Origin: an uncultured Clostridia bacterium
GTDB taxonomy: Bacteria > Bacillota > Clostridia > TANB77 > CAG-508
Direction of reading: 5' to 3'
DNA length: 64,000 nt
Assembly (NCBI GenBank): GCA_944391745.1
Contig: CALXUS010000009.1
Location: 1 to 64,000 of the forward strand
Part shown: one piece after another, positions 29,592-52,153 of the stretch
How the letters are laid out: every line of letters begins with the position of its first letter
Numbering within the stretch: position 1 is the stretch's first letter
Notes under the pieces: generated by a model
Told to the model about the DNA's origin: nothing
Database searches by the model: none
The model's input: the letters and a program-made list of their open reading frames with translations, nothing else
Made by a program: the position numbers and the translations under genes

Positions 29592-30194
29592 ATGAAAAGA
29601 ATTATAGGAAACATTATATTCGTAATTTATGCCGCAATCGCAGTATTCGTAACGGTTTGCTTATTGTCTTATAATGAGTATAAAATAACCGAATTTGGAA
29701 ATGAATCTTTATTAATAATTGATAATAATAGTTTAGAACCAGATTTCTATAGTGGAGATTTAGTAATTGTTAATCGTAACGATAAAATAGAGATAGGTGA
29801 TAATATCTTCTTTTATAACACTGCTGAAGACACCGTAGAAGTAACATTAGGAAAAGTAACTGATGCAGAATTAGTTACAAGTAAACAAATTACATATACA
29901 ATTAATGATCAATTATCACTATCAAGTGATTATGTAATTGGCTCAGCAAAAAGTGCTAGTAGAATAGCAGGAGTAGGAACAGTACTTACTGTATTAGAAT
30001 CAAAATGGGGATTTTTATTTATAATTGTATTCCCATCACTAATAGCATTCATTTATGAAATATATATTGTTATTATGGAAGTAAAAGATAGCAATGAAGA
30101 AACAAAAAAGAAAAAAAGTAAGAGTAAAGCTAAAAATGAAAACAAAGATAAGGAAAAAAAGAGCAAAAGTACTAGTGATGAAGAGGAAGAATAA
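29592..30194 (+). CDS. Signal peptidase I-like protein, SipW type, lacking the usual His
   Basis: A 200-residue membrane protein with an N-terminal helix (about 7-26), a SipW-like extracytoplasmic domain, a C-terminal helix near residues 137-158 and a Lys/Glu-rich cytosolic tail. The nucleophile region is NNSLEPDFYSGDLVIV (S47), but where active ER-type peptidases have a TH(R/Q) motif this protein reads EDTVEVTLGKVT, with no His. It may be a pseudo-enzyme or use another residue. It overlaps the next gene's start and opens the operon. Confidence 0.75.
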   Translation: MKRIIGNIIFVIYAAIAVFVTVCLLSYNEYKITEFGNESLLIIDNNSLEPDFYSGDLVIVNRNDKIEIGDNIFFYNTAEDTVEVTLGKVTDAELVTSKQITYTINDQLSLSSDYVIGSAKSASRIAGVGTVLTVLESKWGFLFIIVFPSLIAFIYEIYIVIMEVKDSNEETKKKKSKSKAKNENKDKEKKSKSTSDEEEE

Positions 30195-30796
30195 TGAAAA
30201 GAAAAGTATTAATTTTAATTTCTACACTTGTACTGATTGTAACTATCGCAATTATAACAATAACTTATGCAATCTTTGAAAGTAGACTGGAAGGAAATAT
30301 TACAGTAGAAAGTGCCACATGGAAAATCTTAGTTAACAGAACAGATATATCTTCAGGGCAAACTCAGGAGTTTGTGGTTGATAGAATCAACATAAATGGA
30401 GATTCACATACAACAGAAGGAAAAATTGCGCCAGGACAATCAGGAAGTTTTGATATTTTGATTGATCCAAATAACACTGATGTTTCAGTCAGATATGATA
30501 TACAATTAGATTTGTCATTTATAGAAGATACAAAAATGGAAATTACTTCAATAGAAGAAACTGAAAAAAAAGCAACTCTAATTAAAACAGCTGAAAATAC
30601 ATATACAGGAGTAATTCCTTTAAATGAAATAAGATATGGAACAAGAAACAATATTCGAATTAGTCTTATGTGGTATGAAGACGAATCAACAAATGAAAGA
30701 GATACTGAAATTGGAAGTGTAGAAAATAATGCAATTAATATTCCAATAAGTGTAAAAGTAACACAATATCTTGGAGAAGAAATACAATCAATATGA
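30194..30796 (+). CDS. TasA/camelysin-like secreted protein
   Basis: A 200-residue protein with a SipW-type signal peptide: basic MKRK, hydrophobic stretch, then TITYAIFESRLEGN with likely cleavage after A26. The mature part is beta-rich (VESATWKILVNRTD, GKIAPGQSGSFDILIDP, VRYDIQLDLSF), the layout of TasA/CalY-type fibre subunits. No anchor motif. The start overlaps the preceding stop, and it is followed directly by a signal peptidase. Family assignment rests on architecture, not a strong signature. Confidence 0.7.
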   Translation: MKRKVLILISTLVLIVTIAIITITYAIFESRLEGNITVESATWKILVNRTDISSGQTQEFVVDRININGDSHTTEGKIAPGQSGSFDILIDPNNTDVSVRYDIQLDLSFIEDTKMEITSIEETEKKATLIKTAENTYTGVIPLNEIRYGTRNNIRISLMWYEDESTNERDTEIGSVENNAINIPISVKVTQYLGEEIQSI

Positions 30797-30803
30797 GGAA
30801 AAA

Positions 30804-31334
30804 ATGAAAAAAACATTAAAAATAATTTGTGAAGGCATACTTAATATATTAGTAATAATTGCAATAATAATATTAATTTTTTCAGTTTATATAATCTATC
30901 AAGTGAAAATACAAAATAAGCAATATGCTACAATTTTGGGATATACAGCTTTAGAAGTTATAACAGGGAGTATGGCTGGAACAATAGATATTGGAGATTT
31001 AGTAATAGTCGAAGAAACCCAAGACGTAAATGTTAATGATATTATAGTATATAGAAAAGATGAAGATTTAATAACACATAGAATTGTAAAAAAAGATGGT
31101 GAAACAATTATAACAAAAGGTGATGCAAACAACACAGAAGATGATCCAATAACAATTCAAGATGTTGTTGGTAAAGTTAGATTTACAATAAAGAATGTAG
31201 GAATTTGGAAAGATGTATTTTCATCTCCAGTGGTATTAGCTTGCATTACAGTTACAATAATATTATTTGGAATAGCTATAATGTATAAACCAAAAAATAA
31301 AATGGAGGAAAATCAAGAAAGTGGCAAAGAATAA
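30804..31334 (+). CDS. Signal peptidase I, SipW/ER type
   Basis: Membrane serine peptidase that likely processes the neighbouring TasA-like proteins. The N-terminal helix (about 9-33) is followed by EVITGSMAGTIDIGDLVIV (nucleophile S56), DLITHRIVKK (H92) and IITKGDANNTEDDPI, the full ER-type Ser-His set. A second helix near 150-168 ends the domain. ATG 30804 is preceded by GAGGA; a longer in-frame reading from 30771 lies inside the previous gene. 176 residues. Confidence 0.88.
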   Translation: MKKTLKIICEGILNILVIIAIIILIFSVYIIYQVKIQNKQYATILGYTALEVITGSMAGTIDIGDLVIVEETQDVNVNDIIVYRKDEDLITHRIVKKDGETIITKGDANNTEDDPITIQDVVGKVRFTIKNVGIWKDVFSSPVVLACITVTIILFGIAIMYKPKNKMEENQESGKE

Positions 31335-31881
31335 AAAAATTAAACTATACGTAAAATTAATAATACTTGTAATATGCTTTATATTGGTTATTCAAATTTT
31401 TGCTATCACAATATCAAGATATGAAAGCAACTCAACCTCTAATGCAGATATAGACATAGCTTTTTATGTAGTTAATGAAGATTATCAAACATTAACATTT
31501 ACTTTAGAAGACATAGTGCCACGAACAGAACCTTATGTTTATAATTTTACAGTATCAAATGAAAAAGATGGTAAAACAGCAGAAGTAGATATAGAATATG
31601 AATTAAATGTAAGAACAACTACAAATTTACCATTACAATATGAATTATATAAAACAGAAGATGGAAATCAAGCAAAAGCAAATGAAGAATTAATTCAAGA
31701 TGAAGATGGAACAATATTTAATAATTTAACAGCAAATACTTATACTTTCTATTATGATACACCTAGGGTAGATATGTATACTTTAAGGGTATATTTCCCA
31801 GAAGAATATAATACTGAAAATTACCAAGATATATTAGAATTAATTGAAGTGAACGTTAATGCTAGACAAATAGTTGATTAG
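31321..31881 (+). CDS. Secreted or membrane-anchored TasA-like protein
   Basis: A 186-residue protein starting with GTG, 10 bp after GGAGGA, and overlapping the signal peptidase by 14 bp. A basic N-terminus and hydrophobic helix (about 9-30, ending IFAITISRY) are followed by a beta-rich domain (DIDIAFYVVNEDYQTLTFTL, YVYNFTVSNEKDGKTAEVDI, YTLRVYFPEEY). The topology matches other small subunits in this locus; the family is not firmly recognised. Confidence 0.65.
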   Translation: MAKNKKIKLYVKLIILVICFILVIQIFAITISRYESNSTSNADIDIAFYVVNEDYQTLTFTLEDIVPRTEPYVYNFTVSNEKDGKTAEVDIEYELNVRTTTNLPLQYELYKTEDGNQAKANEELIQDEDGTIFNNLTANTYTFYYDTPRVDMYTLRVYFPEEYNTENYQDILELIEVNVNARQIVD

Positions 31882-31896
31882 ACAAAAGAGGAGGAA

Positions 31897-32841
31897 ATGG
31901 TGAAAAAACAGAAAAAAAAGAAACAAAATATAAACAAAATAAGACTTATAATAATTGTTTCTGTTATAGCAGTAATCTGTATTTCATTAATTGCAGTATT
32001 AGCAAGATATGTTACACAATCAATAAATGATTCAATAATGACCAGTAAAGAATTTTATTTTTATAGTGATAAACTAAAAGAAAATAAAGAAATATATCAA
32101 ATAAACAATTGGTCTGGGGTTGAAGATTACACTATAACAATAAATATGAATAGTACTGAAAACAACCTAAAAAAAGTATCTTATGATATACCTTATAGTA
32201 TTAGTTATCAATGCTCTTCAAACATACTATGTCAATTAAGCAAAACAGAAGGAATAATATATTCATCAACAAATGCAGATACATTTACATTAAAAATAAC
32301 TCCAAATGCAGTTTACAGAAATGGAGATGAAGTTTGGGTAGATATATTTGCACAATCTGAAGGCGAATATAAAAAAGAGTTACAAGCAAGATTTGTGTTA
32401 GTAGTAGGAAGAGAAAATGTAACTTATGAAATTGACGATAGTGCAAATTCATTATATTTTGAACTAAATGTTACAAACACACAATCATATTATACTGTAG
32501 CTGAAGCATTTGATAATTACTCTGTGGGACAAAGAATTGATATGAGCGTCTATTCAACTCTTTCAGAAGCAAATAAAGAAAAGTGTTATTCTGGAGAGAT
32601 AACTCTTAGCTTTAACCCAAATGAAGTAAGAATGGATATGACTGATGCATCATATTTAAATGCTAGCAACATAAAAACAACTAGAATAAATGGATATACA
32701 TATATAAGTGGAATGACAATAGAAATAGATGCATTGTCCAGCGAAAATATAAGATTTTATAAAGTAGATAAAACTAAAAACTACACTTACCCAATTGTAA
32801 ATAATGATTCAATAATAGATGTTACAATAAGAGATGCATAG
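31897..32841 (+). CDS. Membrane-anchored extracellular protein of unknown family
   Basis: A 314-residue protein with a very basic start (KKQKKKKQ), a helix at about 15-36 and a beta-rich extracytoplasmic part with two repeated ~110-residue halves suggested by similar strand patterns. Cysteines at QCSSNILCQ and EKCYSG are notable. GAGGAGG precedes the ATG. It may be an accessory fibre or base subunit; function unassigned. Confidence 0.65.
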   Translation: MVKKQKKKKQNINKIRLIIIVSVIAVICISLIAVLARYVTQSINDSIMTSKEFYFYSDKLKENKEIYQINNWSGVEDYTITINMNSTENNLKKVSYDIPYSISYQCSSNILCQLSKTEGIIYSSTNADTFTLKITPNAVYRNGDEVWVDIFAQSEGEYKKELQARFVLVVGRENVTYEIDDSANSLYFELNVTNTQSYYTVAEAFDNYSVGQRIDMSVYSTLSEANKEKCYSGEITLSFNPNEVRMDMTDASYLNASNIKTTRINGYTYISGMTIEIDALSSENIRFYKVDKTKNYTYPIVNNDSIIDVTIRDA

Positions 32842-32855
32842 AAAGGAAAAAGAAA

Positions 32856-33860
32856 ATGACAATTAATGTAATGGATGAATATCTAGAACTAACAAAAGAT
32901 TATATAGTAAAATATATGAAGTTAATTATGGGAAACAAATACAACAAAGAAGTTTGTGATCGATTAACTAAAAAATATATTGAAACAAGATATAACAATT
33001 TCTATGAAGATGAAGTTGAAAAAGGGCTTCCAATAAGAAAAAGAATAATGAGTGAAATAAAAGATTTATCTAGCAGATTAATAGAAAATGGAATTGCAGA
33101 AAAAGAATTAGTGGACAATATGTGTATATTCTTCTATTATGTTCTTTACTTTGATAATTTAGTATTAACAAAAAATATGACAAATGAAATATATAATATA
33201 CATAAATTAAGAAAAAAGTTACTTAATAAAGATGAAGATGATTTTTCTGAAAAATTGAAAAATTTAATAACAGAATGGCAAGAAAATATTTCAAAAGAAT
33301 TAGAAAAATATGACACTAAAGAATTTTTACTTAAGTTTTCATCATATAAAAATGTTAGAAATGTTTCTAGAGTTAATATAGAATATAATATAAAACTACC
33401 GGTAATTTACAGTGAATTTGCAATTAATAAAGCTTTTAACAGTGGGGTTGTAAATGAGGATAAGCTCTATATTGAGTATTATTTAATTGCTGTAAGAATT
33501 ATAAGAAATATAATAAGACAAGATTTCAAAAGACATTACATAGTAGAATTTGCTGGAAGTTTATTGGAAAAAAATAAAAAAATCAAGGGAATAATTAATA
33601 TAATAAGTAATTCAGCTATACAAGACAAACTTAGCTTAAAAATAAGATACAATGACTTTTTAAATAATAAAGAAGCGGTTTATGAACTAATGAGAAGTGG
33701 CTTTAAAATAGCTATTATAATAGACAAGTCCTTTGAAATAAGCTATGAAAATATAGAAAAATTAGATATGTTTTCTTATGTATTGATTAGCAAAGATTCA
33801 GAAATATATGACAAAATAATGAAAACAAATAATAAAATAAAAAACTTAATAGAAATATAA
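32856..33860 (+). CDS. Hypothetical cytosolic protein between subunit and ATPase genes
   Basis: No signal peptide or membrane segment in 334 residues. The N-terminal 200 residues are helical (DEYLELTKDYIVKYMKLIMG, IYNIHKLRKKLLNKDEDDF). The C-terminus has alternating strands and helices (GIINIISNSAIQDKLSLKIR, ELMRSGFKIAIIIDKSFEIS) reminiscent of a degenerate TIM-barrel such as EAL, but no catalytic motif is seen. It lies 15 bp before or 18 bp from its neighbours in one operon. Not recognised. Confidence 0.6.
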   Translation: MTINVMDEYLELTKDYIVKYMKLIMGNKYNKEVCDRLTKKYIETRYNNFYEDEVEKGLPIRKRIMSEIKDLSSRLIENGIAEKELVDNMCIFFYYVLYFDNLVLTKNMTNEIYNIHKLRKKLLNKDEDDFSEKLKNLITEWQENISKELEKYDTKEFLLKFSSYKNVRNVSRVNIEYNIKLPVIYSEFAINKAFNSGVVNEDKLYIEYYLIAVRIIRNIIRQDFKRHYIVEFAGSLLEKNKKIKGIINIISNSAIQDKLSLKIRYNDFLNNKEAVYELMRSGFKIAIIIDKSFEISYENIEKLDMFSYVLISKDSEIYDKIMKTNNKIKNLIEI

Positions 33861-33877
33861 GAAAGGTGAGGTAAAAA

Positions 33878-35398
33878 ATGGAAACATTTACACGATTTTT
33901 ATATGAATTTTTAGCACAGTTTTTCTCGGGAATAGGAGAAATATTCAAAGGACTATGGGGTGGAATTACACAAATATTTAATTTTGGTGCATATAAAGAC
34001 ATATTAGGGCATTATTCAGAAGATTTTTCAATTCCAGAATGGATATTAGTAATTATTGCTATTGTATTATTAGTAGGTGTAGTAGCATTAGTAATATTCT
34101 TATTATATTTACTTTTAAGAAAATACTTAAAGTTTAGAAAAGCAGCAATAGAGCAAGATGAACTATTAGAAGAAGTTGCAAATTTAAATAGAAAAGTAGC
34201 TGACCTTATGAAGGAAAAAGATGAAATATTAGCTATGAAAGTTTCGCAATTAGGTTTAAAACCAGGCGAATCACCAGAGCTAGAAGGTAATGAAGAGCAA
34301 CAAGATGAGGCTGGAGAAGGAATCAGATTCCCTAAACTAAATGCAATAGATGAAGAATTTAAAGATTACAAAATTAAAAATTATGGAGATAGCTTTACTT
34401 TACCAGAATTATGTGAGAACTTTAGAAACTTTGCTGCTTCACAATTAAAATTATATTATTCATTAGATATGATGAGATTATTTATAGCAGCTTTATCATC
34501 AACAAAACTAGTTATATTACAAGGTATTTCTGGTACTGGTAAAACATCTTTAGCGTATGCATGGGGAAAATTTTTAAAACATGATTCATGTGTTGCTTCA
34601 GTTCAACCATCATGGAGAGATAGAACGGAACTTTTTGGATACTTTAACGAATTTACAAAGAAATTTAATGAAACAGATGTATTAGCTGAAATGTATAAAG
34701 CAGGATACACAGATGATGTATATACAATAATACTAGATGAAATGAACATTTCTCGTGTTGAATATTATTTCGCAGAAATGCTATCAATACTAGAAATGCC
34801 AAATCAAGATGAATGGATTGTAGAGCTTGTACCAAATAGTTGGAAATCAGACCCTAAGAGAGTTGTAGGAGGAAAATTAAGAATACCACCAAACTTATGG
34901 TATATAGGAACAATAAACAATGATGATTCAACATTCATGGTAACAGATAAGGTTTATGATAGAGCTATGCCAATTGATATAAATGATAAAGGAAAAGCAT
35001 TTAAACCAGTAGAACAAGAAGCAATGGATATCAATTATAGTTACTTAGAAACTTTATTTACATCAGCAATACAAGAATATGAAATTTCTCCAGAAACCAT
35101 AGAGAAAATAGAAAAAATGGATGATTATGTAATTAGACATTTCCGTATAGCTTTTGGTAACCGTATTGTTGCACACATGAAAAAATTTGTTCCAGTATAT
35201 GTTGCATGTGGAGGAGACGAAATAAGTGGTGTTGATTACTTTATTGCAAAGAAAATATTAAGAAAGTTTGAACAACTTAACATATCTTATATTAGAGATG
35301 AATTAGACCCATTTATAGAATATCTAGACGACACATTTGGAAAAGATAAAATGAAAGAATGTAAAGATTACATAACAAGACTTAAAAAATTAACATAG
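33878..35398 (+). CDS. Membrane-anchored McrB-like AAA+ ATPase
   Basis: A 506-residue protein. An amphipathic N-terminus and a single transmembrane helix (about 55-81) precede a coiled coil (90-120) and an AAA+ domain. Walker A is GISGTGKTS (about 216-224), Walker B IILDEMNISR (about 283-292) and sensor 1 IGTINNDDS (about 343-351). The DEMN Walker B and following ISRVEYYFAEML match the McrB/MoxR group. McrB-type ATPases usually power type IV restriction, but membrane anchoring and neighbours point instead to remodelling of surface proteins. The partner DUF2357 gene follows. Confidence 0.85.
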   Translation: METFTRFLYEFLAQFFSGIGEIFKGLWGGITQIFNFGAYKDILGHYSEDFSIPEWILVIIAIVLLVGVVALVIFLLYLLLRKYLKFRKAAIEQDELLEEVANLNRKVADLMKEKDEILAMKVSQLGLKPGESPELEGNEEQQDEAGEGIRFPKLNAIDEEFKDYKIKNYGDSFTLPELCENFRNFAASQLKLYYSLDMMRLFIAALSSTKLVILQGISGTGKTSLAYAWGKFLKHDSCVASVQPSWRDRTELFGYFNEFTKKFNETDVLAEMYKAGYTDDVYTIILDEMNISRVEYYFAEMLSILEMPNQDEWIVELVPNSWKSDPKRVVGGKLRIPPNLWYIGTINNDDSTFMVTDKVYDRAMPIDINDKGKAFKPVEQEAMDINYSYLETLFTSAIQEYEISPETIEKIEKMDDYVIRHFRIAFGNRIVAHMKKFVPVYVACGGDEISGVDYFIAKKILRKFEQLNISYIRDELDPFIEYLDDTFGKDKMKECKDYITRLKKLT

Positions 35399-35408
35399 GT
35401 GATTGAAA

Positions 35409-36521
35409 ATGGAAGATTTAAAAATAGTAGATGTATATGAAAAATCTAACGAAAGAAAAACAAAGAAATTTAATGACAATGTAAATTCTTCAATGAGAAT
35501 ATTAATAGATTATGAAAAAACTGTTAAGGATACTGAATGGATAGATATGATGGAATTAACAATACCATATATAGATAACATATTTAGAAATCCTAATAGA
35601 TTCATAATAAATGAAGAAGAAATTGTAAAAATAGAATTAGCCAGAAGGATAACTGTAGATAGTATAAAACATCTTGCAAAACATACAAATTTTATACAAG
35701 AAATAGATAAGAAAAATGGAGATGTAAAACCATCAAAAATCTTAAATATTAACAAAGAAGAAAGCTACAATACTTATGAAAATAGGTTGATTTATACATT
35801 AGTACAGAATATGAAAGCATTTGTTAATCAAAAGAAAGAAATTTTAGCAAATACAAAAAAATCACCTTTTAAAGATGAAAAGCTTGTTGAATATCAAGGA
35901 AATAGTAATTCTGGAAATGAAGAAATCGAAATGACATTTAGTATAAAAACTAGAGCAACTGTTGATAAAAGTCAAAGTAGCGAAGAAGGAATAGAAGCCA
36001 GAATAGAAAGACTTGAACAAAAAATAAGAGACTTAACAAGCACAGAAGTTTATAAGATTCTAGAAAAAGAACATGTAGCTTTAGTTAGACCGCCAATCAG
36101 AAAAACAAATGTTATATTAAAAAATGTAAACTTTCAATATGCAGTAAAATTATGGAATTATCTACAAGATAATTTAGAAGATAGTACTAAGAAAATTAAA
36201 GACAAAAAAGATTATATGGAAGAAGGAGAACTTAGAAACCTAGCTAATGAAACATTTTTACTTGATTATCTTATTGTCAACAAATTAAACAAAGATGAAC
36301 AGGAAAATGAAGAAGAAAATGAAGAGGCTAAAGATGAATTAATAGACAAATTATTAGGAAAAATACTAGATTTAGATTTAGGACTTAGTGAAGATCAATT
36401 AAAAGACATGATAGGAAGAAAATTTGCAATAATAAAATATAAGAAAATGGCGACAATGCAAGAAATACAAAAAATATTTAGTACACATATTGACAAATAC
36501 TTAGAGAAAATAGAAGGATAA
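35409..36521 (+). CDS. DUF2357-like partner of the McrB-type ATPase, no nuclease motif
   Basis: A 370-residue cytosolic protein. It carries the ESYNTYENRLIYTLVQNM segment typical of DUF2357 proteins, which are encoded next to McrB-like ATPases in McrBC-like systems. I see no PD-(D/E)xK nuclease motif, which McrC proteins have at the C-terminus. ATG 35409 has AGGTGA spaced 6 bp upstream; an in-frame TTG at 35403 is possible. The stop of the ATPase overlaps the ribosome site, implying coupled translation. Confidence 0.7.
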   Translation: MEDLKIVDVYEKSNERKTKKFNDNVNSSMRILIDYEKTVKDTEWIDMMELTIPYIDNIFRNPNRFIINEEEIVKIELARRITVDSIKHLAKHTNFIQEIDKKNGDVKPSKILNINKEESYNTYENRLIYTLVQNMKAFVNQKKEILANTKKSPFKDEKLVEYQGNSNSGNEEIEMTFSIKTRATVDKSQSSEEGIEARIERLEQKIRDLTSTEVYKILEKEHVALVRPPIRKTNVILKNVNFQYAVKLWNYLQDNLEDSTKKIKDKKDYMEEGELRNLANETFLLDYLIVNKLNKDEQENEEENEEAKDELIDKLLGKILDLDLGLSEDQLKDMIGRKFAIIKYKKMATMQEIQKIFSTHIDKYLEKIEG

Positions 36522-36567
36522 TAATAACTTAAGAAAAGTCATACTTATACAGAAAAGAGGTAAGGCA

Positions 36568-37416
36568 ATGCTAAAAAAAATAAGAGATAACAAAGTTATT
36601 AAAATAATAGGAAATATTTTATATGCATTAGCATTTATTCTTGTTTTACTTATTCTTATTGTTGTTGCTATTCAAAGATTTTCTAATAATGATATTGCAA
36701 TATTTGGAATAAGATTCTTTTATGTAGCATCAGGAAGTATGCTTCCACAATATGGAGTTGGGGATATATTAATTTCACAAGAAACAGATCCTGAAAATAT
36801 TAATGTTGGAGATGCAATTACATATCTAGGTAATAAAGGAAGCATGAATGGAATGATAGTAACTCATCAAGTCGTAGAAAAAAATATGACTGAGGATGGA
36901 AAATATACTTTTGTTACAAAAGGAACAGCTAATACAATAGTAGACCCTGCTGTATCAGAGGATCAAGTTTATGGAAAAGTATTAGGAAAATCACAAATAT
37001 TGAGTTTTATATGTAAACTACTTCAAAATATATATGGATTTTATTTTATAATAATAGTACCATTGGGAATTATTCTCGCGAAATTTATATTTAACTTTTT
37101 AGTAAGTAGAGAAGAAAAGAAAAGTAGTATGGAAGAAGATGATAATTCGGAAGACTCAGAAGAGGATATTAATGAAGAGACAATAGAAGAAAGCAATAAT
37201 GAAGATAAAGACAAAGAAAATAATAAATCAAAAGAAAAAGATAAGCATAAGGAAAAAGAAGAAAATGCAAAAACTAACAAAAGCCTAATGAAATATTTTA
37301 CAAAATTAAAAAGCAAAAAATCATCTAAAAATAAAAAGGATGATGACAAATCTGAAGAAGAAAAAAATATAACTAAAGGAAACGATAGTGAAGAAAGTGA
37401 AAATGGAAAAGATTAA
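36568..37416 (+). CDS. Signal peptidase I, SipW type, with a long charged C-terminal tail
   Basis: Ser-His dyad signal peptidase: helix at about 11-37, VASGSMLPQYGVGDIL (S57), MIVTHQVVEK (H100) and FVTKGTANTIVDPAV. After a second helix (about 150-175) comes an unusual ~100-residue Lys/Glu/Ser/Asp-rich cytosolic tail (KKSSKNKKDDDK type). It overlaps the next subunit gene by 29 bp. It probably processes the adjacent TasA-like protein. Confidence 0.85.
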   Translation: MLKKIRDNKVIKIIGNILYALAFILVLLILIVVAIQRFSNNDIAIFGIRFFYVASGSMLPQYGVGDILISQETDPENINVGDAITYLGNKGSMNGMIVTHQVVEKNMTEDGKYTFVTKGTANTIVDPAVSEDQVYGKVLGKSQILSFICKLLQNIYGFYFIIIVPLGIILAKFIFNFLVSREEKKSSMEEDDNSEDSEEDINEETIEESNNEDKDKENNKSKEKDKHKEKEENAKTNKSLMKYFTKLKSKKSSKNKKDDDKSEEEKNITKGNDSEESENGKD

Positions 37417-38068: not shown

Positions 38069-38070
38069 GA

Positions 38071-38107
38071 TAAAAAAAGAATGTATATAAGAAATTATAT
38101 ACATTCT
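38071..38107 (-). terminator. Terminator for the minus-strand TasA-like gene
   Basis: A perfect 13-bp stem (38078-38090 with 38095-38107, core GAATGTATATAA) is followed on the minus strand by T7. On the plus strand only A-rich sequence follows, so it should not stop transcripts coming from the upstream operon well. Confidence 0.75.
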
Positions 38108-38116
38108 AAATATAAA

Positions 38117-38701: not shown

Positions 38702-38811
38702 TGTTAATCTCCTATAAATAAATTTTATGGTATAATAAATTTATATCACAAGAATTAATATAAATCAATATTTTAATTGATTAAAAAATTAATAAAAAAG
38801 GAATGATAAAA

Positions 38812-42468: not shown

Positions 42469-42487
42469 GCAATATGAGGAGAACCAA

Positions 42488-45400
42488 ATGAAGAAAATTA
42501 ATAAGAAAAAAATAATTGCATTAATTTTACTAGTTTTGATAATTATTATAGAGATTGTTGCTTTTAGAAATTCTAGAGCTAATAGAATTATTGAAATGAA
42601 TGTAAGTTTAATAGACGCAGACCAAGAGTTAGAAGATAATCTTCTAACTTGGTCTGCTATAAGCAGTGAAGATTCTTATTATATTGAGCTCCCAGAATAT
42701 GTGGGCGATTTTCGTGTTAAAGAATATAAAGTATCAGCTATAGGTCCTAGCACAAGTGCACCAGAAAGCTCTTCTGGAAGTGGCACAATAAATGAAACTG
42801 TAGAAAATAATACATCTACTGAAAATAGTGTTAATAGTGAAAATACAACTACTGAAGAAAATATAACAGAAGAGAATACTACAGTAGAAGAAAATGTAGA
42901 AAGCCCAAATAGCAAAGAAAATGAACCTTTAGAAGATAATTCAGAAGATACAACTAATTCAATGCCACAAAATGAAAATCAAGAAAATACATCAAATGAA
43001 AATATTGAAGTAGAAGAAACAGTAACAACAAGTTCAATTAAAGATATAAGAGCATATAGTAGTGGAAGTACAGAACAAGCAAGTAATCAAATTGAAGAAT
43101 ATACAATGAGAAATACTACTTATAAGCCAGGAGATAAAATATATTTAAATGAACAAGAAATAGAAAGCCAAGAAATAAAAATTACAGTTGAATATGATTA
43201 TAAGTTTTTCGAAGAAGAAAAATTATACTATAAAAATATTACTTCAGAGATTGATGATAGAAGAGTGCAAGCTGAAGGATATATGCCAGTAGAGTCAACT
43301 TTAAATGTTTCAAAGGTTGAGCAAGAGGACATAGAAGAAAAATTAGATTTATTCCTTATAAATAATGTTGAATTTAATACTGCTTATGATATTAAAGTAA
43401 TGACTGGTGATATAGAATATGAGCCAAAGAATTACAATGAAGAATTGAAAGTGACAATAACAAATATCGTTAAAGATGAAAATACAGCATATAGAGTTGT
43501 ACATATTGATGAAGAAAGCAAAGAAGTTACAAATGTAGAAGTAACAGGAGAAGATGTAAAGTTTAATGCCAAAGAATTTTCAATATATGCAGTATTAGCA
43601 GAACCAAATGCAGAGCTTACAACTTATGCTGCAGGTGACAATACTAGAGAAGCTGATATTTGGGAAGGTGACACAGCAAGAGGATTTATGTGGGGAGATG
43701 GAAGCGAAAATAGCCCATATTTAATTTCAACTGGAGCAGAATTAAGTTATTTAGCAGAGCAAGTGAATTCAGGAAATTCTTATCAAAATGTATATTTTCA
43801 AATAGCAAGAGATATAGACTTAAATGGAATAGAATGGACTCCAATAGGAACAACATCTAATTCATTCAGAGGAATAATAGATGGAGCTGGACACATAATT
43901 TCAAATACTCAAATCATAATAAGTACTGTTCCTAATAGTTTAATAGAATCCTATGGTATCTTTGGAAGTATTGGTGGAGGAAATTCTACCACTGAAATTA
44001 AAAATATTGAATTTAATGATATAACAATTTCAATACAAGCAAGTGGAAATACTGGTACAAGAGTATGGAATGATGAAGGCTTAAATGTAGGTATTGTTTC
44101 AGGAGCAATGTATAGAAATTCTAAAATTATAAATTGTATAACAAATAATTGCGCAATTAATGATAATGGAAATATAACTATACAAAGTTCAGATTTTAGA
44201 TATGCAGTAGGTGGTTTAGTAGGATATGCACAATATGGCGAAGGCAGTACTACTGACCCAGGTGCAAATTCAAGATATGAAATTAATAATTGCTTTGTTA
44301 ATACAGATATAAATTTAAGTGCAGATCCAAGTGAAACGCAAGGTTGGTGGTCAACAGATAATCAAACAAATGCTGGACAATATCAAACCGGAGGAATAAT
44401 AGGAACTATTAATAACCAAGGAAAATGGCCTGAAAATTCACTTTATGTAGGAACAATTGATTCAAATGGTTTTATAGGACCAATTTTTGGTGGATTAGTA
44501 AATGGAACAAATTATGATTCAACAAACAACTATGCTACTATATGGAATGGTAATGGCTCAGGAAATCTTACAATGACAAGTTACTATAGCGGTTTTACTG
44601 CTAATAGAAGAACATTTAATGCAACAGTTACTACAGGTACATCTACTAATAGATTAAGCGGATCAAGTGATGATATTGGTAGAGTACAAGGTGTTAACAA
44701 AGGTATTTATCAAGTTGATATATCTGCTTTATTAACTAATTTTAATAGTTATGCAAATAGTAATGGATATATGACATGGAATTATTCAAATGGAACATAT
44801 ACATTTATAAAAAGATTCGAAACAAGTGTAGATGATTCTAATAAACCAACTTATGTTATTAATATAGATAATGCCTATTCAAGTGGTCCTTATACTTATG
44901 AGTGGTATTTAGATGGACAAGAGGTAACAGAACTAGAAAATCAAAATCAAATAACACAAGACCCTATATGGGATTATGATTATGATTATTATATATTAAT
45001 TAGTGATGGAGAATATTATTCAATAGAAAATATTTTTATTGAAAGACTATCATTAGAAATAGTATTTGATATTGATTACCAAAATGATAGAGTAACAGCT
45101 TCTTTGGCAGGAACAGCTTTGCCATATATTAATTTGGATGATTATACTTATCAATGGTATACAATTGATATAGCTGGACTTAATACCGAAATAATAGAAG
45201 GAGAAACATCAACAATACTTGAAAATTTAGAAGAGGGACAAGAATACCAATTAGTTGCAACTAATAATTCTAACTACTCTTTAAATGTACAGAATTCATT
45301 TATATATGGTGATAGAAATGTTGTATATGTAAGTTACAGTAACGGAAATGATAGAAATGACGGATATTCACCAGAAAGACCAGTTAAAAATTTAAGCACA

Positions 45401-48400
45401 GCTTATGGAAAATTAGAATCGGGAGCTTCTAGAACAAAAAATATAATTGTTGTAATGGGAAGATATTCAAATTATAATATATATAATTCTCAAACAGGAA
45501 CAACTTATGCAAAAAATGCAACTTTAACAGGAATTTATGCTGGTATAAATTATAATGGTGTTCTATATATGAGTGGAAATAACAGTACATATAGATATTT
45601 AAATGGAGATACAACATTCCAATATTTAACTTTATATGGTAGTTACAGTTCTTTATATTTATATTTACAAGGATATAGCTTGACAATGGGTGAGCAAGTA
45701 ACAATGGAAAATTACTCAAGAGCAAATTCAAACCAGGGATTACTAGGAAATAATGCACCAGCATTTCACATAATATGTGGTTGGTTAAGATATAATTATT
45801 CAAGACTTCCAAGAGATGAAGCTGAAGTAATAATAAAAAGTGGGTCTTACGGAAGAATAATTGGTGGAGGAAGCCCAGGTACAACAGGAGCTCAAAACTT
45901 ACAAAATAATACTTCACATAATTTTATGGGGTCATCTATGGATGATAGTTTTAAAATAACCATAACAATAGATATTGAAAATTCAACGACTCCAGATAAT
46001 TATGATTACGATGTTAACCTACTTGTTGGTGGATCAGCCTGTGGAAATAACTATTCTGTAGTTACTGAAAATATAATTTCAGGAACTGTAGGAAGACTTT
46101 GCGGAGGTAGTATAGGAGATTCAAGTACTGTACCTTCAAGATGGAATTATCCAATAAATACATTCTTAGGAGAAGTAACAATAAATATTTCTGGTGGATC
46201 AGTAGATGAACTCTATGGTGGATGCTTAGGAAGAAATATGAATGCTATTGGTGGAAGTGATAGAAATCCAAGACTTTGTGATTCATATTTTTATGGTACA
46301 GCGACTATTAATATATCTGGTGGAGAAGTGCTAAGTAACATATATGGAGCAGGAGCCGGAGGTGTTACTGGTTATAGTGCAAACTCTTCAGATGATTATA
46401 AAAGCTATGGTAGAGACTTTGATACAAGTGTAAATATAAATATTTCTGGTGGAAGAATAGCAGGAAATATTTATGGCGGAGGATATGGTTATACAGAATA
46501 TTTAACACAAAATTCAACAGCAGATGATAGTGGTACACTATATGGCGATAGCCATATAACTATTACAGGTAGCCCTACTATAGAAGGAGATATATATGGA
46601 GCTGGTTGTGGATATAACTTATCAAGAAAACCAAACTTAGCTCAATTAGAAGGAACTTCAACAATAGACATTTCAGGATCTCCAAAAATTTATGGAACAA
46701 TATATGGCGCAGGAGCAGGTCTTGCAAGATATGAAGAAATGGCTAAGTTAACAGGTACATCTACAATAAATATTTCAGCAAGCTTATCATCAGAAGTGTA
46801 TGGTGGAGGTAATAATGCTAAAGTTGAAGGAAGCACAACAATAAACATTAATTCAGGTACACATACAGGTGATATATATGCAGGAGGAAATTTAGGAGAA
46901 ATTGTTGGAGATACAACAGTTAATATAAATGGAGGCTCACCAAGAAGAGTATTTGCAGGAGGAAACCAAGCAGATGTTACTTCATCAGTTACAAATATTT
47001 TAGGTGGTAATGCAAATGAAGTATATGGTGGAGGTAATGAAGCTTTAGTTACAGATGCAACAGTATACATTGATGCTGGAAACACAGGAAGTGTATATGG
47101 AGGAGGAAATCAAGCGGCAGTTACAACTCCAAGAATATACATTAGAGGCGGTGTTACTGATAATGTATATGGTGGTTCAAATGTAAATGGACAAATAAAC
47201 CAAAGTTATATAGAAATGACTGGTGGTGAAACTGGTAATATATTTGGTGGAAATAATCAAGGCGGTACAACAACTAATACTAATATTCTTATAAATGGTG
47301 GATCAGTTACTGATTCAGTATATGGTGGTGGAAATAGAGCTAATACTGAAACAAGTACAATTAATTTAAATAGCTCAGATGGACTAATAACTAATGTTTA
47401 TGGTGGTGGATATTCAGCTAATGTTACTACTTCTAATGTAACATTAAATGGCGCTACTGCAGGAAGTATATATGGTGGTTCAAATACGGAAGGAACAGTC
47501 AATGAAAGTAATGTAATAATACAAGCAGGAAAAGCTACAGACGTATATGGCGGTAACAATCAAGGTGGACGAACAAATACTACAAATGTAAATGTTTATG
47601 AAACTGGAGAAGTTACAAACGTATATGGTGGTGGCGACCAAGCAACAAGTGGAACAACTAATTTAAACATAAGAGGAACAGTAAATGGAAGCATTTATGG
47701 TGGTGGAAATAGAGCAGGAGTAGACTATGATACTCATCTAGACATAGAAAATGCTAACATATTACAAAGCGCTTATGGTGGAGGAAATGAAGGAACTGTC
47801 ACTGGAAATACCTATGTACATGTAAAGAATTCTAATCTATCTGAAAGCATTTATTCAGGAGGAAATGGTGCAACTGCAGTTGTATATGGTACAACAAACC
47901 TTAATATAGATGGTACAAGTACAGTAATAGGAAAAAATGTATTTGGTGGTGGTAATAAATCTGCTACTGGAGATGAAACAAGCAATAACTCAGTAAGTAC
48001 TGTAAACATTGTCGGAGGAGAAATTCACGGAAATGTTTATGGAGGTGCAAATACTTCAGTTGTATATGGATATACACAAACAAATATAGGATATGATGCA
48101 GTAAATGACCAATCACTTGAAAAAGGTGATATACATATTTATGGAACAGTATTTGGTGGAGGAGAAGCCAATGAAGCTGGTTCAGAAATATTTGACTATT
48201 CTTTCATAAGTGTTACAGAAGGAATAGATATTCAAATAAATGGAAATGGTTATGAAAACTTTGATATAGACGGAAGTATATTTGGCTCAGGAAACGCATC
48301 TAGTACTAGTGGTGACAGTAATATAACTATTCAAAACTATGGAACAGTTAATGATCCAAAGAGTAATGTATCTATACAGAGAACAGATTGTGCAACCTTA

Positions 48401-50890
48401 AGTAATTCAGCAATTGCATTATCAGGAGCAACAGATAGAACAAACGAATATTCAGAAGAATATTACACAATAAGTAGGGTAGACGTATTAAAATTAAAAA
48501 ATAATTCTACACTTTATCTAAATTATGGAGCAAACCTTCTTACAGTATTCGAAAGCTTAGTAGATGTTAATGGACAAGAAGTAAAAGAAGCTGTTGAAAT
48601 AAACCCAGATACAAATGAGATGACAAGAAATGTAGATAATAGAATTTATATGGCAGAAGGAAGAAACTTAAATGTTGCAACAAACGAGCAGGCAACAGCA
48701 TTTGGACAAGTACATGGAATGACATTCTTTGGATTATTTACAAATAAAATGAATCCAGAAACAAGTACAGGATTATATAACGCAAATTATCAAAATGGTG
48801 ATACAATTACTAATGCAGGAACATTCTCATCTAACTCTTATGTTAGAGCACAACACATGGATAACCACGATATAACAGTAGATGGTTTTTATACAAACTA
48901 TGATGAAGATGGAATAATAAAGGTAGACTATATTGGTGTAACACCAGAAGATGACGTTTATTATATATGGGTAGTAGGTGAAGCTATGGATGTTACAACA
49001 TTTGAAATAACATTAACAGCTTCAAAATATGCTACATTAGGTACTTATGAGTTATCACTAATAGGATTTTCTAATCCAAACATTGTATTTAACTTAACAG
49101 GTTTTTCTGCAGGATTGGATGATGGAATATCTTTAATAAGGTCAGACGATATTGAACAAATAGCAGAAAATGAAGAAGATGCAAATAGCATATTTGGTCT
49201 TACAATGGAAGCCGGAAAAAACGGTTGGAATAATGCAGGTGAAACAGAATTTTTAACAGCTGATGGTGGATCTTATGAAGGAGAAAATACATATAGAAAA
49301 GACAACTCATCATTTACACCAACACTGAACTTCTATTTATTCCACTCATCTAACTTAACAGAGGAAAAACTGTTAGGAGATGTAAAAATAAGATTCCAGA
49401 CATTAATTCCAGTAGATGATTTAAATTATAGAATAGCATATATAGATATAATAGTTACAATGAATACAGCCTTATATCAGGATGACTACTATGAAGCGGC
49501 AATTACTCCAGGAGAAGAATATGGACTATTTACATCTACACCAACAAGTATTACAGAAAGAAGTGCATTTTCAGCATATTATTCATTATATATAAATGAA
49601 TTTTCAACAACAGATTATTATGAAGACATAAGCACTGATTATAGAGTTTTAATATCTAGAGATTCATCAGATAGACCTTATGTTTTCCCAGAAAATACAA
49701 GAATTGTTATGCTAGATTTAGCAGCCAATAAACAGTACTATTATGTAGTAACTGCAGATGATGTAGCAAATAACAAATATGAATTTAGACTTACTGATTT
49801 TATTGTAATGGGAAGCACTGATGAGCACTATAGAGAAGACGAAATGCTGAATACTTATTATAATCAAAATCAAGATATATTATTTGAAAATTATATATTC
49901 CATGTAAAATTCTCAGAAGCTAATTTACAGAATGATATAGTAAATAATAGTTTGCTGATGGAATTAAGAAACATGGATGATGAAACATTAATTGGTGTTT
50001 TAGGTATTCAAAGAGATGTAATGAGATATAGTGTATATAGAAATAGAAATGCTCAAATAGGAGTTTCTGCAACAATAGATGACACAACATATTTAGGAAA
50101 TCCAATTAATTTACAAGTATCAACAGATTTCAAACAAGAAATAGTAAACTCAGTAACAATTTTTGATACACAATATTTCGAACAGAAAATGGGAATTATA
50201 CTTACTATTTATGATATAAATGGCAATGCACTAAGCTTAGATAGTTTATTTGGTATAAATTTTGAAATAGATGGAACAAGATACTATCCAAGAATAGACG
50301 GAACAACAAGAATTAAAATAGCTGACAAAGTATCTAATGTTCTTTCTAAAATTAAAATAAATACAGATGGAAATACTACTCTGGCGACAGGAACATATAC
50401 AATAAAAATAGAAAGCTTTGGTTCACCAGATGGAATCTATTTTGGATTGGAATCATCAGCAACTACAGAAGTAAAGACAACAATTATTAATTCTAATTAT
50501 GGTTTAAAAGCAAAATTAGATAATGCTTACAAAGTAATAAATAAAGATACAGGACTAAATAAAAACGATTCTAATACTATTAGTGTAAATCTAGAATATT
50601 CATCAGGATTAGCAAATCCTAATATTACAGTATCATTATATAGAAGAAAATATGATGAAACATATTCTCAAGAATATGAACTAGTAAATATGCAAGATTA
50701 CATAACAGATACATTAACACCAGCTACAAATACAAATGAATATGTAGTAACATCAAATCCTACAGCTAGTTCACAATATAATTATACATTTAAGGATAAT
50801 TTAAAATCAGGAACTTATAAAATAGTATATGAATTATACGATGGAGAAAATTATATTGGAGAAGATTCTGAACAAATTGTTATAAAATAA
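42488..50890 (+). CDS. Giant (2,800-residue) surface protein with YGGG beta-helix repeats
   Basis: An N-terminal basic/hydrophobic signal or signal-anchor (about 1-26), then a Ser/Thr/Glu/Asn-rich linker (about 80-200) and a domain up to about 375. A GLUG/DGSGTEDDP-like region (DGSENSPYLISTGAELSYL) and a DUF1565-like start (VYVSYSNGNDRNDGYSPERP) open a beta-helix. About 24 YGGG-type repeats of roughly 22 residues follow (about 1,235-1,890; VYGGGNEA, VYGGGNQA, IFGGNNQG). The last 900 residues are non-repetitive beta domains. No LPXTG motif or C-terminal helix is seen, so anchoring may be N-terminal or via the TasA-like partners. GAGGAG precedes the ATG. Adhesin or matrix scaffold is inferred. 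Confidence 0.82.
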   Translation: MKKINKKKIIALILLVLIIIIEIVAFRNSRANRIIEMNVSLIDADQELEDNLLTWSAISSEDSYYIELPEYVGDFRVKEYKVSAIGPSTSAPESSSGSGTINETVENNTSTENSVNSENTTTEENITEENTTVEENVESPNSKENEPLEDNSEDTTNSMPQNENQENTSNENIEVEETVTTSSIKDIRAYSSGSTEQASNQIEEYTMRNTTYKPGDKIYLNEQEIESQEIKITVEYDYKFFEEEKLYYKNITSEIDDRRVQAEGYMPVESTLNVSKVEQEDIEEKLDLFLINNVEFNTAYDIKVMTGDIEYEPKNYNEELKVTITNIVKDENTAYRVVHIDEESKEVTNVEVTGEDVKFNAKEFSIYAVLAEPNAELTTYAAGDNTREADIWEGDTARGFMWGDGSENSPYLISTGAELSYLAEQVNSGNSYQNVYFQIARDIDLNGIEWTPIGTTSNSFRGIIDGAGHIISNTQIIISTVPNSLIESYGIFGSIGGGNSTTEIKNIEFNDITISIQASGNTGTRVWNDEGLNVGIVSGAMYRNSKIINCITNNCAINDNGNITIQSSDFRYAVGGLVGYAQYGEGSTTDPGANSRYEINNCFVNTDINLSADPSETQGWWSTDNQTNAGQYQTGGIIGTINNQGKWPENSLYVGTIDSNGFIGPIFGGLVNGTNYDSTNNYATIWNGNGSGNLTMTSYYSGFTANRRTFNATVTTGTSTNRLSGSSDDIGRVQGVNKGIYQVDISALLTNFNSYANSNGYMTWNYSNGTYTFIKRFETSVDDSNKPTYVINIDNAYSSGPYTYEWYLDGQEVTELENQNQITQDPIWDYDYDYYILISDGEYYSIENIFIERLSLEIVFDIDYQNDRVTASLAGTALPYINLDDYTYQWYTIDIAGLNTEIIEGETSTILENLEEGQEYQLVATNNSNYSLNVQNSFIYGDRNVVYVSYSNGNDRNDGYSPERPVKNLSTAYGKLESGASRTKNIIVVMGRYSNYNIYNSQTGTTYAKNATLTGIYAGINYNGVLYMSGNNSTYRYLNGDTTFQYLTLYGSYSSLYLYLQGYSLTMGEQVTMENYSRANSNQGLLGNNAPAFHIICGWLRYNYSRLPRDEAEVIIKSGSYGRIIGGGSPGTTGAQNLQNNTSHNFMGSSMDDSFKITITIDIENSTTPDNYDYDVNLLVGGSACGNNYSVVTENIISGTVGRLCGGSIGDSSTVPSRWNYPINTFLGEVTINISGGSVDELYGGCLGRNMNAIGGSDRNPRLCDSYFYGTATINISGGEVLSNIYGAGAGGVTGYSANSSDDYKSYGRDFDTSVNINISGGRIAGNIYGGGYGYTEYLTQNSTADDSGTLYGDSHITITGSPTIEGDIYGAGCGYNLSRKPNLAQLEGTSTIDISGSPKIYGTIYGAGAGLARYEEMAKLTGTSTINISASLSSEVYGGGNNAKVEGSTTININSGTHTGDIYAGGNLGEIVGDTTVNINGGSPRRVFAGGNQADVTSSVTNILGGNANEVYGGGNEALVTDATVYIDAGNTGSVYGGGNQAAVTTPRIYIRGGVTDNVYGGSNVNGQINQSYIEMTGGETGNIFGGNNQGGTTTNTNILINGGSVTDSVYGGGNRANTETSTINLNSSDGLITNVYGGGYSANVTTSNVTLNGATAGSIYGGSNTEGTVNESNVIIQAGKATDVYGGNNQGGRTNTTNVNVYETGEVTNVYGGGDQATSGTTNLNIRGTVNGSIYGGGNRAGVDYDTHLDIENANILQSAYGGGNEGTVTGNTYVHVKNSNLSESIYSGGNGATAVVYGTTNLNIDGTSTVIGKNVFGGGNKSATGDETSNNSVSTVNIVGGEIHGNVYGGANTSVVYGYTQTNIGYDAVNDQSLEKGDIHIYGTVFGGGEANEAGSEIFDYSFISVTEGIDIQINGNGYENFDIDGSIFGSGNASSTSGDSNITIQNYGTVNDPKSNVSIQRTDCATLSNSAIALSGATDRTNEYSEEYYTISRVDVLKLKNNSTLYLNYGANLLTVFESLVDVNGQEVKEAVEINPDTNEMTRNVDNRIYMAEGRNLNVATNEQATAFGQVHGMTFFGLFTNKMNPETSTGLYNANYQNGDTITNAGTFSSNSYVRAQHMDNHDITVDGFYTNYDEDGIIKVDYIGVTPEDDVYYIWVVGEAMDVTTFEITLTASKYATLGTYELSLIGFSNPNIVFNLTGFSAGLDDGISLIRSDDIEQIAENEEDANSIFGLTMEAGKNGWNNAGETEFLTADGGSYEGENTYRKDNSSFTPTLNFYLFHSSNLTEEKLLGDVKIRFQTLIPVDDLNYRIAYIDIIVTMNTALYQDDYYEAAITPGEEYGLFTSTPTSITERSAFSAYYSLYINEFSTTDYYEDISTDYRVLISRDSSDRPYVFPENTRIVMLDLAANKQYYYVVTADDVANNKYEFRLTDFIVMGSTDEHYREDEMLNTYYNQNQDILFENYIFHVKFSEANLQNDIVNNSLLMELRNMDDETLIGVLGIQRDVMRYSVYRNRNAQIGVSATIDDTTYLGNPINLQVSTDFKQEIVNSVTIFDTQYFEQKMGIILTIYDINGNALSLDSLFGINFEIDGTRYYPRIDGTTRIKIADKVSNVLSKIKINTDGNTTLATGTYTIKIESFGSPDGIYFGLESSATTEVKTTIINSNYGLKAKLDNAYKVINKDTGLNKNDSNTISVNLEYSSGLANPNITVSLYRRKYDETYSQEYELVNMQDYITDTLTPATNTNEYVVTSNPTASSQYNYTFKDNLKSGTYKIVYELYDGENYIGEDSEQIVIK
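46190..48165 (+). repeat. Degenerate YGGG repeat array in the giant protein gene
   Basis: About 24 coding repeats, most spaced near 66 bp, each encoding (I/V)(Y/F)GGG(N/S) followed by a Thr/Asn-rich strand. The units are diverged at DNA level, so the array is old and selected at protein level rather than a recent expansion. Confidence 0.8.
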
Positions 50891-50896
50891 TAAATG

Positions 50897-50924
50897 GATA
50901 AAGAAGCTATAAAGCTTCTTTATC
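50897..50924 (+). terminator. Hairpin with weak U-tract after the giant protein gene
   Basis: A perfect 11-bp stem, GATAAAGAAGC (50897-50907) and GCTTCTTTATC (50914-50924), is followed by TTACAATAT rather than a T-run. It lies between the giant gene and its signal peptidase; it may be a partial terminator or an RNA-processing site that sets their ratio. Confidence 0.5.
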
Positions 50925-50946
50925 TTACAATATAATTAAGGAAGAA

Positions 50947-51552
50947 ATGGCAATGAAATTTGATGAAACATCGATATTAAAAAGAAAGAAAAGAGCAAAA
51001 GCTATTAAAATAGCACTATTTATAGTTTTAATATTAATTTTATACAATGTCATTTTAGTTGGAATTTCATCAATTAACAAAGATAATAGTTGGAGCATTT
51101 TCGGATATAAAGCATTTATAATTACATCAGAAAGTATGCAACCAAATATAAATGTTGGAGATGTAATAATAACAAAAAACATATCTCAAGATGAAATAAA
51201 AATAGAAGACATAATTACTTTTCGAAGAAATGAAGAATTAACAACTACACATAGAGTAGTAGATATAAAAGATGATGACAAAGGAAATAAACAATTTATA
51301 ACCAAAGGTGACAATAATAAAACAGGTGACGAAGAAAGCGTTGCATATAATCAAATTGAAGGAAAAGTAGTGTTAAGAATACCTTATTTAGGAAATTTAA
51401 TAAACTTTTTAGAAGACAATATAGTTATACTTATTATAATACTTATACTATTAATAATATTATTAATTTACATTAGTAATAATGAAAGAAAAGATAAGAG
51501 GAGAAGAAAAAGGGAAGTTGAAAGCAAAAAGGAACAATCAAAGAAATACTAA
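50947..51552 (+). CDS. Signal peptidase I, SipW type
   Basis: A 201-residue Ser-His signal peptidase. Helix at about 20-40, FIITSESMQPNINVGDVII (S63), LTTTHRVVDIK (H102) and FITKGDNNKTGDEESV, then a C-terminal helix and a basic tail (RRRKREVESKKE). AAGGA lies 5 bp before the ATG. It follows the giant gene by 56 bp and overlaps a second signal-peptidase-like gene. Confidence 0.85.
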   Translation: MAMKFDETSILKRKKRAKAIKIALFIVLILILYNVILVGISSINKDNSWSIFGYKAFIITSESMQPNINVGDVIITKNISQDEIKIEDIITFRRNEELTTTHRVVDIKDDDKGNKQFITKGDNNKTGDEESVAYNQIEGKVVLRIPYLGNLINFLEDNIVILIIILILLIILLIYISNNERKDKRRRKREVESKKEQSKKY

Positions 51553-52153
51553 AAGTAAAAAAATATTTAACAATATAAAAAAATATTTACTTATAATTAT
51601 TTGTATAATATTAATTGTTTATAGCTTAATGTATAATTTTAATGATATATTTTTTAATAAAAAAGAAGTAAACTTAGGATCAATTACATTACTTACAGAA
51701 AGTGATTCAGATTCTATGAAGCCTTTAATAACAGAAACACAATTGATTATAACAAAAAAGGAAAGAATAAATAAAATAGATATAGGCGATATAATTGCTT
51801 ATTACAATATAAATAGTAGAGAGGAAAATAATATAAAAATCCAAACTGTAAAAAACATAAAACAGGATAATGGAAGAACATATATTATTACAAAAGGCGA
51901 AAACTACATGTATTCTAATAATGAAGAAGTAGAAGACGATGAAATAGTAGGAACAGTTATAGTAAAGATACCTATTCTAGGGCTTTTAGCAAAATTATTA
52001 CAAATGAAATTAATGTTAATAGTATATTTAGCAATAATAGTATTTTTAATAGTACAAAAATATAAAAAAGAAAAAGCTGTAAAGAAAATCATAGAAAAGC
52101 AAGATAGACAAATAAAAAGAAGAAATGAAAAATTGAAAAATATTGACAAATAA
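51482..52153 (+). CDS. Signal peptidase I-like protein without the catalytic His
   Basis: A 223-residue relative of the preceding protein. It has a helix (about 33-51), TESDSDSMKPLITETQLII (S78) and YIITKGENYMYSNNEEV, but the dyad region reads IKIQTVKNIKQ, with Gln in place of the TH motif's Thr-His pair. A C-terminal helix and charged tail follow. It overlaps the preceding gene by 71 bp with no clear ribosome site at the first ATG; TTG 51515 is an alternative start. It runs into the dinB promoter. Likely a pseudo-protease or regulator, but this is inference. Confidence 0.68.
   Translation: MKEKIRGEEKGKLKAKRNNQRNTKSKKIFNNIKKYLLIIICIILIVYSLMYNFNDIFFNKKEVNLGSITLLTESDSDSMKPLITETQLIITKKERINKIDIGDIIAYYNINSREENNIKIQTVKNIKQDNGRTYIITKGENYMYSNNEEVEDDEIVGTVIVKIPILGLLAKLLQMKLMLIVYLAIIVFLIVQKYKKEKAVKKIIEKQDRQIKRRNEKLKNIDK

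Follow-up and report, generated by a model that had tools for sequence, protein, structure and literature searches.

Peptidases and secreted proteins of the locus

In a stretch of 64,000 nucleotides from an uncultured Clostridia bacterium (contig CALXUS010000009.1 of assembly GCA_944391745.1, positions 1 to 64,000; hereafter the window), we examined a locus in which SipW-type signal peptidases and putative TasA-like secreted proteins lie together with a giant repeat protein and with a membrane-anchored McrB-like AAA+ protein followed by a DUF2357 protein. The window lies on one contig of a 1.65-Mb draft genome that is 94% complete. Genes are numbered g1 to g17 in positional order, g0 being the divergent gene just upstream (table 1), and every gene listed in the original prediction, which had been made from the letters of the window alone, was recovered with the coordinates given there. 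To follow these genes elsewhere, 490 relatives of the AAA+ protein, g7, were found in genome contigs, and the best 80 loci, picked by g7 similarity alone and coming from Clostridia and Bacilli, were analyzed.

Five signal-peptidase-like genes had been proposed, and all five are present, but only g3, g9, and g16 are catalytically intact. Against TIGR02228, the model of the SipW-type peptidase family (cut-off 51.85 bits), g3, g9, g16, and g17 score 75, 85, 107, and 53.6 bits, respectively, all above the cut-off, and g1 scores 24.7 bits, below it. The catalytic Ser and His are kept in all the homologues of g3 (32/32), g9 (76/76), and g16 (10/10) across the 80 loci; in g17 the Ser is present and the sequence holds no catalytic His. 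As for g1, its homologues show no conserved residue at the Ser or the His column, the active pattern being found in 1 of 60. Given that g1 occurs in 66/80 loci, it is a conserved pseudo-peptidase rather than a decaying gene. The genome as a whole yields six TIGR02228 matches, five of them at the locus and the sixth weak and partial. A Sigma_reg_N match on g16 was dropped, since this protein scores far better as a signal peptidase.

The putative substrates differ in how often the signal helix ends in a TYA-like cleavage motif. This ending is found in 48/48 g13 and 54/62 g11 proteins, in 30 to 50% of g2, g4, g5, and g10 proteins, and in only 2/42 g12 proteins; at the locus itself, the anticipated set of at least four proteins with TYA-type SipW ends was seen in g2, g10, g11, and g13. 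The motif frequencies thus single out g11 and g13 as the surest, and likely, SipW substrates, and g12 looks like a membrane anchor that is probably left uncleaved. In profile–profile comparison, g2 pairs with g11 at 100%, with g4 at 97%, and with g10 at 96% probability, a relationship that places g2, g4, g10, and g11 in one predicted superfamily; the C-terminal ends of g12 and g13 also match (93%). Two further hits fall below their thresholds: g4 against the TapA model TIGR04087 (E 6.4e-7, 29.2 bits, cut-off 80) and, just short, g13 against TIGR04088 (18.6 bits, cut-off 19). Weak Pfam and NCBIfam matches to rifin, connexin, and Piezo were discarded as driven by transmembrane (TM) or charged stretches, and the profiles of g2, g6, g8, g11, and g13 retrieved nothing convincing from the Protein Data Bank (PDB). 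Both g5, which carries a TM helix, and g10 are present in 73/80 loci.

On the forward strand, g1 to g10 overlap or lie less than 50 bases apart. Gene g11 is reversed here, as it is in 63 of the 66 loci carrying it, and gaps of 101, 125, and 232 bases precede g12, g13, and g14; from this arrangement, g11 and g13 may be transcribed separately from the rest.

The giant protein g15 was confirmed as a single open frame of 2,800 residues, with nine exact YGGG motifs; its sequence has no LPXTG end. A g15-like giant lies within the retrieved stretch in 46/80 loci, and the protein is a probable adhesin or cargo. Three conserved proteins are harder to place. For g6, found in 69/80 loci, no TM helix and no Pfam, NCBIfam, or PDB match was seen; g14, in 22/80 loci, likewise has no TM helix and no family in Pfam or NCBIfam. 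Gene g0 is linked in 15/80 loci and is present in 7/7 genomes with the system and in 9/88 without it (related genomes, not independent counts), and is therefore probably part of the system.

Table 1. Genes of the locus, with positions in the window, predicted identity, and basis
Gene	Position	Strand	Predicted identity	Basis
g0	28521..29447	-	divergent protein, no TM helix; C-terminal domain conserved; probable accessory protein or regulator	genome co-occurrence, linkage
g1	29592..30194	+	SipW-like membrane protein, pseudo-peptidase without catalytic site	weak TIGR02228 and SipW matches
g2	30194..30796	+	putative TasA-like subunit, TYA-type signal end	profile match to g11
g3	30771..31334	+	predicted active-type SipW signal peptidase	TIGR02228, Ser and His kept
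g4	31321..31881	+	TapA-like protein, predicted superfamily of g2	sub-cut-off TIGR04087, g2-g4 profile match
g5	31897..32841	+	extracytoplasmic protein, N-terminal TM helix	TM helix, conservation
g6	32856..33860	+	conserved protein without TM helix or known family, adjoins AAA+ gene	linkage
g7	33878..35398	+	membrane-anchored McrB-like AAA+ protein	McrB PDB matches, motifs, TM helix
g8	35403..36521	+	DUF2357 (McrC N-terminal type) partner, no recognized nuclease	PF09823
g9	36568..37416	+	predicted active-type SipW signal peptidase	TIGR02228, Ser and His kept
g10	37388..38068	+	putative TasA-like secreted subunit	profile match to g2
g11	38117..38701	-	putative TasA-like subunit, possibly separate transcript, likely SipW substrate	structure model, cleavage motif
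g12	38803..39588	+	membrane-anchored relative of g13, probably uncleaved	motif rare, C-terminal match to g13
g13	39714..40691	+	secreted beta-rich subunit, TYA-type signal end, likely SipW substrate	motif, TIGR04088 near cut-off, structure model
g14	40924..42468	+	conserved protein without TM helix or known family	linkage, family scans
g15	42488..50890	+	2,800-residue secreted protein, N-terminal TM helix, YGGG repeats; probable adhesin or cargo	linkage, repeats
g16	50947..51552	+	predicted active-type SipW signal peptidase	TIGR02228, Ser and His kept
g17	51482..52153	+	SipW-like protein, Ser present, catalytic His absent	TIGR02228

The AAA+/DUF2357 pair and its conservation

The central pair of the locus, g7 and g8, proved to be what had been proposed, a TM-bearing McrB-like AAA+ protein and its DUF2357 partner. 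The profile of g7 finds McrB as its sole match in the PDB (E about 1e-4), and g8 matches PF09823 with 41.8 bits (cut-off 23.3, E 1e-10). In g7, a TM segment (47-86) is followed by Walker A (216-224), Walker B (286-290), and NxD (347-349) motifs, all three retained in at least 93% of 81 g7 proteins; the last reads GTINNDDST, invariant in close relatives, with GTVNMDETT at the same place in soluble NxD relatives. A weak match to an FtsL family (E 6e-4) stays below the cut-off. Hydropathy marks the N-terminus as a TM anchor, and the positively charged segment that follows it suggests an N-out, C-in topology. Such a single-pass anchor with a conserved extracytoplasmic N-terminus, together with conserved and functionally unassigned proteins lacking TM helices (g0, g6, g14), could also belong to a membrane sensing system, where surface proteins act as sensors and the pair relays their signal inward; this account leaves unexplained the multiple SipW peptidases and the TasA-like proteins with SipW-type signal ends, and we regard it as very improbable.

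Conservation ties the pair to the secreted proteins. Directly after g7, g8 is found in 79/80 loci; a SipW-family gene is likewise present in 79/80, with the active-site pattern in 75/80, and the order of g1 to g13 is largely fixed. The neighborhood joining SipW, DUF2357, and TM-McrB genes, which the original prediction proposed to look for in other genomes, is thus a recurrent one, and the pair does not sit mostly in unrelated contexts: among 20 control loci of the nearest soluble NxD McrB-like relatives, surface genes were seen in none. Conserved as a unit, at the level of sequence, are intact SipW peptidases, TasA-like proteins with SipW-type signal ends, the anchor g12, which lacks the cleavage motif, and the AAA+/DUF2357 pair. 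Many distant homologues keep a smaller unit, in which g12-like and g13-like genes accompany a SipW peptidase and the g7-g8 pair and to which another peptidase is often added; in one, L166, the pair stands alone. In a quick tree, whose root is not fixed, a fully supported branch sets all membrane-bound proteins apart, and the proteins with a SipW context group together with 95% support. Closer to the source, 7/95 genomes, drawn from three genera of the family, carry the pair: the source genome and six relatives. In all six relatives, within the limits set by contig ends, the core genes keep their order. Across the class, the system is found in 21/393 genomes, tandem type (see below) included, a patchy prevalence that suggests frequent loss or lateral gain. 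An origin from mobile elements was rejected: the matches, in five plasmids and one phage record, are partial, confined to the AAA domain, and none covers most of g7.

Could the pair be a Type IV restriction-like defence module, kept by chance inside a surface locus? Its AAA domain is homologous to McrB and to the PADLOC defence candidate PDC-M26A (E 1e-34), and on plasmids, soluble relatives lie in islands that also hold a kinase gene or another AAA gene and, in one case, a gene annotated as DUF2357; these islands resemble CoCoNuT defence systems. Yet scans of Pfam and NCBIfam matched no nuclease family in g8, nor does D..(D/E)xK occur at conserved positions of its 79 homologues; the same scans matched no DNA-binding domain in g7, whose N-terminus is a TM anchor and not a DNA-reading domain; and SipW or TasA-like genes accompany the pair in 79/80 loci, as against 0/20 controls. 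Since a nuclease is lacking and the genomic context is one of surface genes, a restriction role for the pair was rejected, and a defence module seems quite improbable.

Predicted folds, known systems, and genomic surroundings

Structural models were compared for the two surest substrates. For the AlphaFold2 model of g11 (predicted local distance difference test, pLDDT, 87), the best PDB match is the TasA fibre 8aur (Foldseek E 2.7e-4); next come the donor-strand pilins FimG and PapG and the archaeal bundling pili of Pyrobaculum. In VIA-align, the PapG pilin domain reaches Z 7.0 and TasA 5.9. For g13 (pLDDT 87), no Foldseek match falls below 0.001; in VIA-align, the TasA fibre and the Sulfolobus thread filament lead with Z 5.5 each, and FimA comes next. 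Thus, where the small proteins had been expected to resemble TasA, g11 and g13 do match it and other donor-strand fibres best, though weakly. In both models the residues right after the SipW site are unpaired; in TasA, the corresponding residues (28-38) form the N-terminal donor strand by which it assembles (PMC9674648).

A different use of the same parts has to be weighed here, namely that the locus secretes anchored beta-proteins and a giant adhesin and displays them as separate surface proteins, no polymer being formed, with the AAA+ pair as a quality-control or extraction factor for membrane-tethered substrates. AAA+ proteins at membranes frequently extract or degrade clients, the cleavage motif is missing from g12 and often from g5, which look anchored, and a giant repeat protein is linked in 46/80 loci. 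On the other hand, polymerization is favored by several paralogous TasA-like subunits whose N-terminus is free downstream of the SipW site and whose best fold matches are donor-strand fibres, and no protease domain was recognized in g6, g7, or g8 by Pfam and NCBIfam scans. Display without a polymer therefore seems unlikely to us.

Several observations weigh against a fibre as well. No locus protein matches a TasA or camelysin family in Pfam or NCBIfam. The structural scores are modest, with Z below 8 and TM-score below 0.4 over the query; those of g11 and g13 for the TasA fold all lie beneath the level that proves kinship, and any one of them is low enough for a common beta-sandwich arrangement to produce it by chance. 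The retrieval of donor-strand fibres by two separate families is a stronger point than any single score. Last, the deepest homologues (L162, L163, L164, and L165) have a tandem AAA-DUF2357-AAA arrangement without SipW genes, so that SipW substrates are not a constant partner of the AAA+ pair. Both AAA copies carry TM helices there, long secreted-looking proteins adjoin in some, and the arrangement is a second type of membrane McrBC-like system.

The original prediction knew of no precedent for the combination, and on this point it has to be corrected. One paragraph of Bell et al. 2024, eLife (PMC11090510) names CoCoPALM, a clade of NxD GTPases that carry a fused FtsB-like TM and coiled-coil region and are associated with proteins of the signal peptidase family, and defers its study. 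The likeness lies in an NxD McrB-like domain with a TM N-terminus, a McrC/DUF2357 partner, and linked signal-peptidase-family genes; NxD is present in g7, with the DUF2357 neighbor and the signal peptidase family each at 79/80 loci. Because these testable features are all found, the locus, compared by the published description, is very probably a CoCoPALM member. That brief account gives no gene-by-gene anatomy, TasA-like subunits, pseudo-peptidase, uncleaved anchor, reversed g11, or giant, all of which are seen here, and a search of the available literature for the name found no later study. As far as could be found, then, the union of both halves had been hinted at earlier, and the anatomy, the pseudo-peptidase, the anchor, and the TasA-like subunits are new.

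Other known systems share only part of the locus. With tapA-sipW-tasA of Bacillus subtilis, where TapA assists TasA assembly (PMC10151520), and sipW-bsaA of Clostridium perfringens, whose BsaA needs SipW (PMC7395162), it has in common a SipW peptidase and SipW-dependent secreted fibre proteins; as described, those operons lack the AAA+/DUF2357 pair, the several intact peptidases with a pseudo-peptidase, and the giant repeat protein, and the proteins studied here show no sequence match to the TasA family. CoCoNuT and McrBC Type IV systems possess a homologous AAA+ domain (NxD in CoCoNuTs) and a DUF2357 partner, yet the published account describes soluble systems whose linked genes encode nucleases or other defence functions (PMC11090510), as opposed to the TM anchor and the lack of a recognized nuclease in the present pair. 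The Fim and Pap pili of the chaperone-usher type provide donor-strand subunits among the best fold matches, and the mechanism proposed below is analogous; no chaperone or usher homologue, however, was recognized at this locus by Pfam and NCBIfam scans. Chaperone-usher pili are Gram-negative and are assembled at an outer-membrane usher.

Upstream, the locus is flanked by the housekeeping genes ffh, rimM, trmD, and rplS, and downstream by a Y-family DNA polymerase gene, folD, and priA (names read from the sequences). At 27273-27972 of the window, trmD is split into two overlapping frames of 148 and 103 residues; a relative in L010 (12848-13546) has a single frame of 232 residues, and the split is a frameshift, either genuine or an assembly error. 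The window of this small genome holds two Y-family DNA polymerase genes (11379-12635 and 52143-53378), the second of which overlaps the end of g17 by 11 bases. Near the locus, the reverse strand encodes a VWA protein (54328-55743) that scores above cut-off for PF21426, the Ig domain of GBS104-like tip pilins, and whose C-terminus has an IPNTG-type motif and then a TM helix; by these traits it resembles a sortase-anchored protein of a pilus tip. The protein encoded at 3731-5116 combines an N-terminus of prepilin type (ERGITLLALIVTVIVL) with a large C-terminal domain; in L018 (14825-17683), two of its relatives adjoin a giant repeat protein. Finally, an in-frame tandem repeat of NPGMQNNGYQVNQ occupies 61600-62120, in a multi-pass membrane protein with a zinc-ribbon-like C-terminal end.

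A proposed route of fibre assembly

Overall, we suggest, with a probability of roughly 0.6, that the locus makes and assembles a surface protein fibre, using as its membrane platform an AAA+ ring of McrB type that a DUF2357 protein regulates. The fibre and SipW parts of this proposal are well supported; the motor role of g7 and g8 is one that we infer. The original prediction of a surface-fibre system with a dedicated AAA+ pair holds insofar as the locus is a dedicated and conserved one with a pair of its own. Its suggestion that the pair replaces a known assembly factor has little footing, given that a TapA-like g4 and SipW peptidases are still present, and supplementing such factors fits better.

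The steps may be pictured as follows. Subunits would reach the membrane via Sec and stay tethered there by their signal helices, until g3, g9, or g16 cuts after TYA; the freed N-terminus could then serve as the donor strand for the next subunit, in the manner of TasA. With its N-terminus out and its C-terminus in, g7 would form a ring as McrB does, g8 being inserted in it as McrC is in McrB, and the use of nucleoside triphosphate (NTP) by the two might gather, feed, or release the tethered subunits. The role of the pseudo-peptidase g1 would be to retain subunits uncut, and that of the giant g15 to act as adhesin of the fibre or as its cargo. Taken further, a restriction-type McrB motor may have been recruited to power a donor-strand-exchange fibre machine of Gram-positive bacteria, in which AAA+ ring, DUF2357 stalk, pseudo-peptidase holder, and SipW trigger do the work of chaperone and usher together, an idea that we put forward tentatively, at somewhat short of even odds.

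A conserved gene cluster of uncultured Clostridia and Bacilli combines the kind of parts from which Bacillus makes its biofilm fibres with a predicted, membrane-anchored molecular motor whose relative is a bacterial anti-virus enzyme, and the product is probably a surface fibre assembled by a route that awaits study. If so, the present genes would be the first defined set for CoCoPALM systems, merely named in 2024, and a branch of the McrBC defence family would be tied to surface assembly. They would also suggest that an NTP-driven machine builds TasA-like fibres in many uncultured gut and rumen bacteria, and how donor-strand fibre assembly is powered and controlled in Gram-positive bacteria would become a directly testable question.

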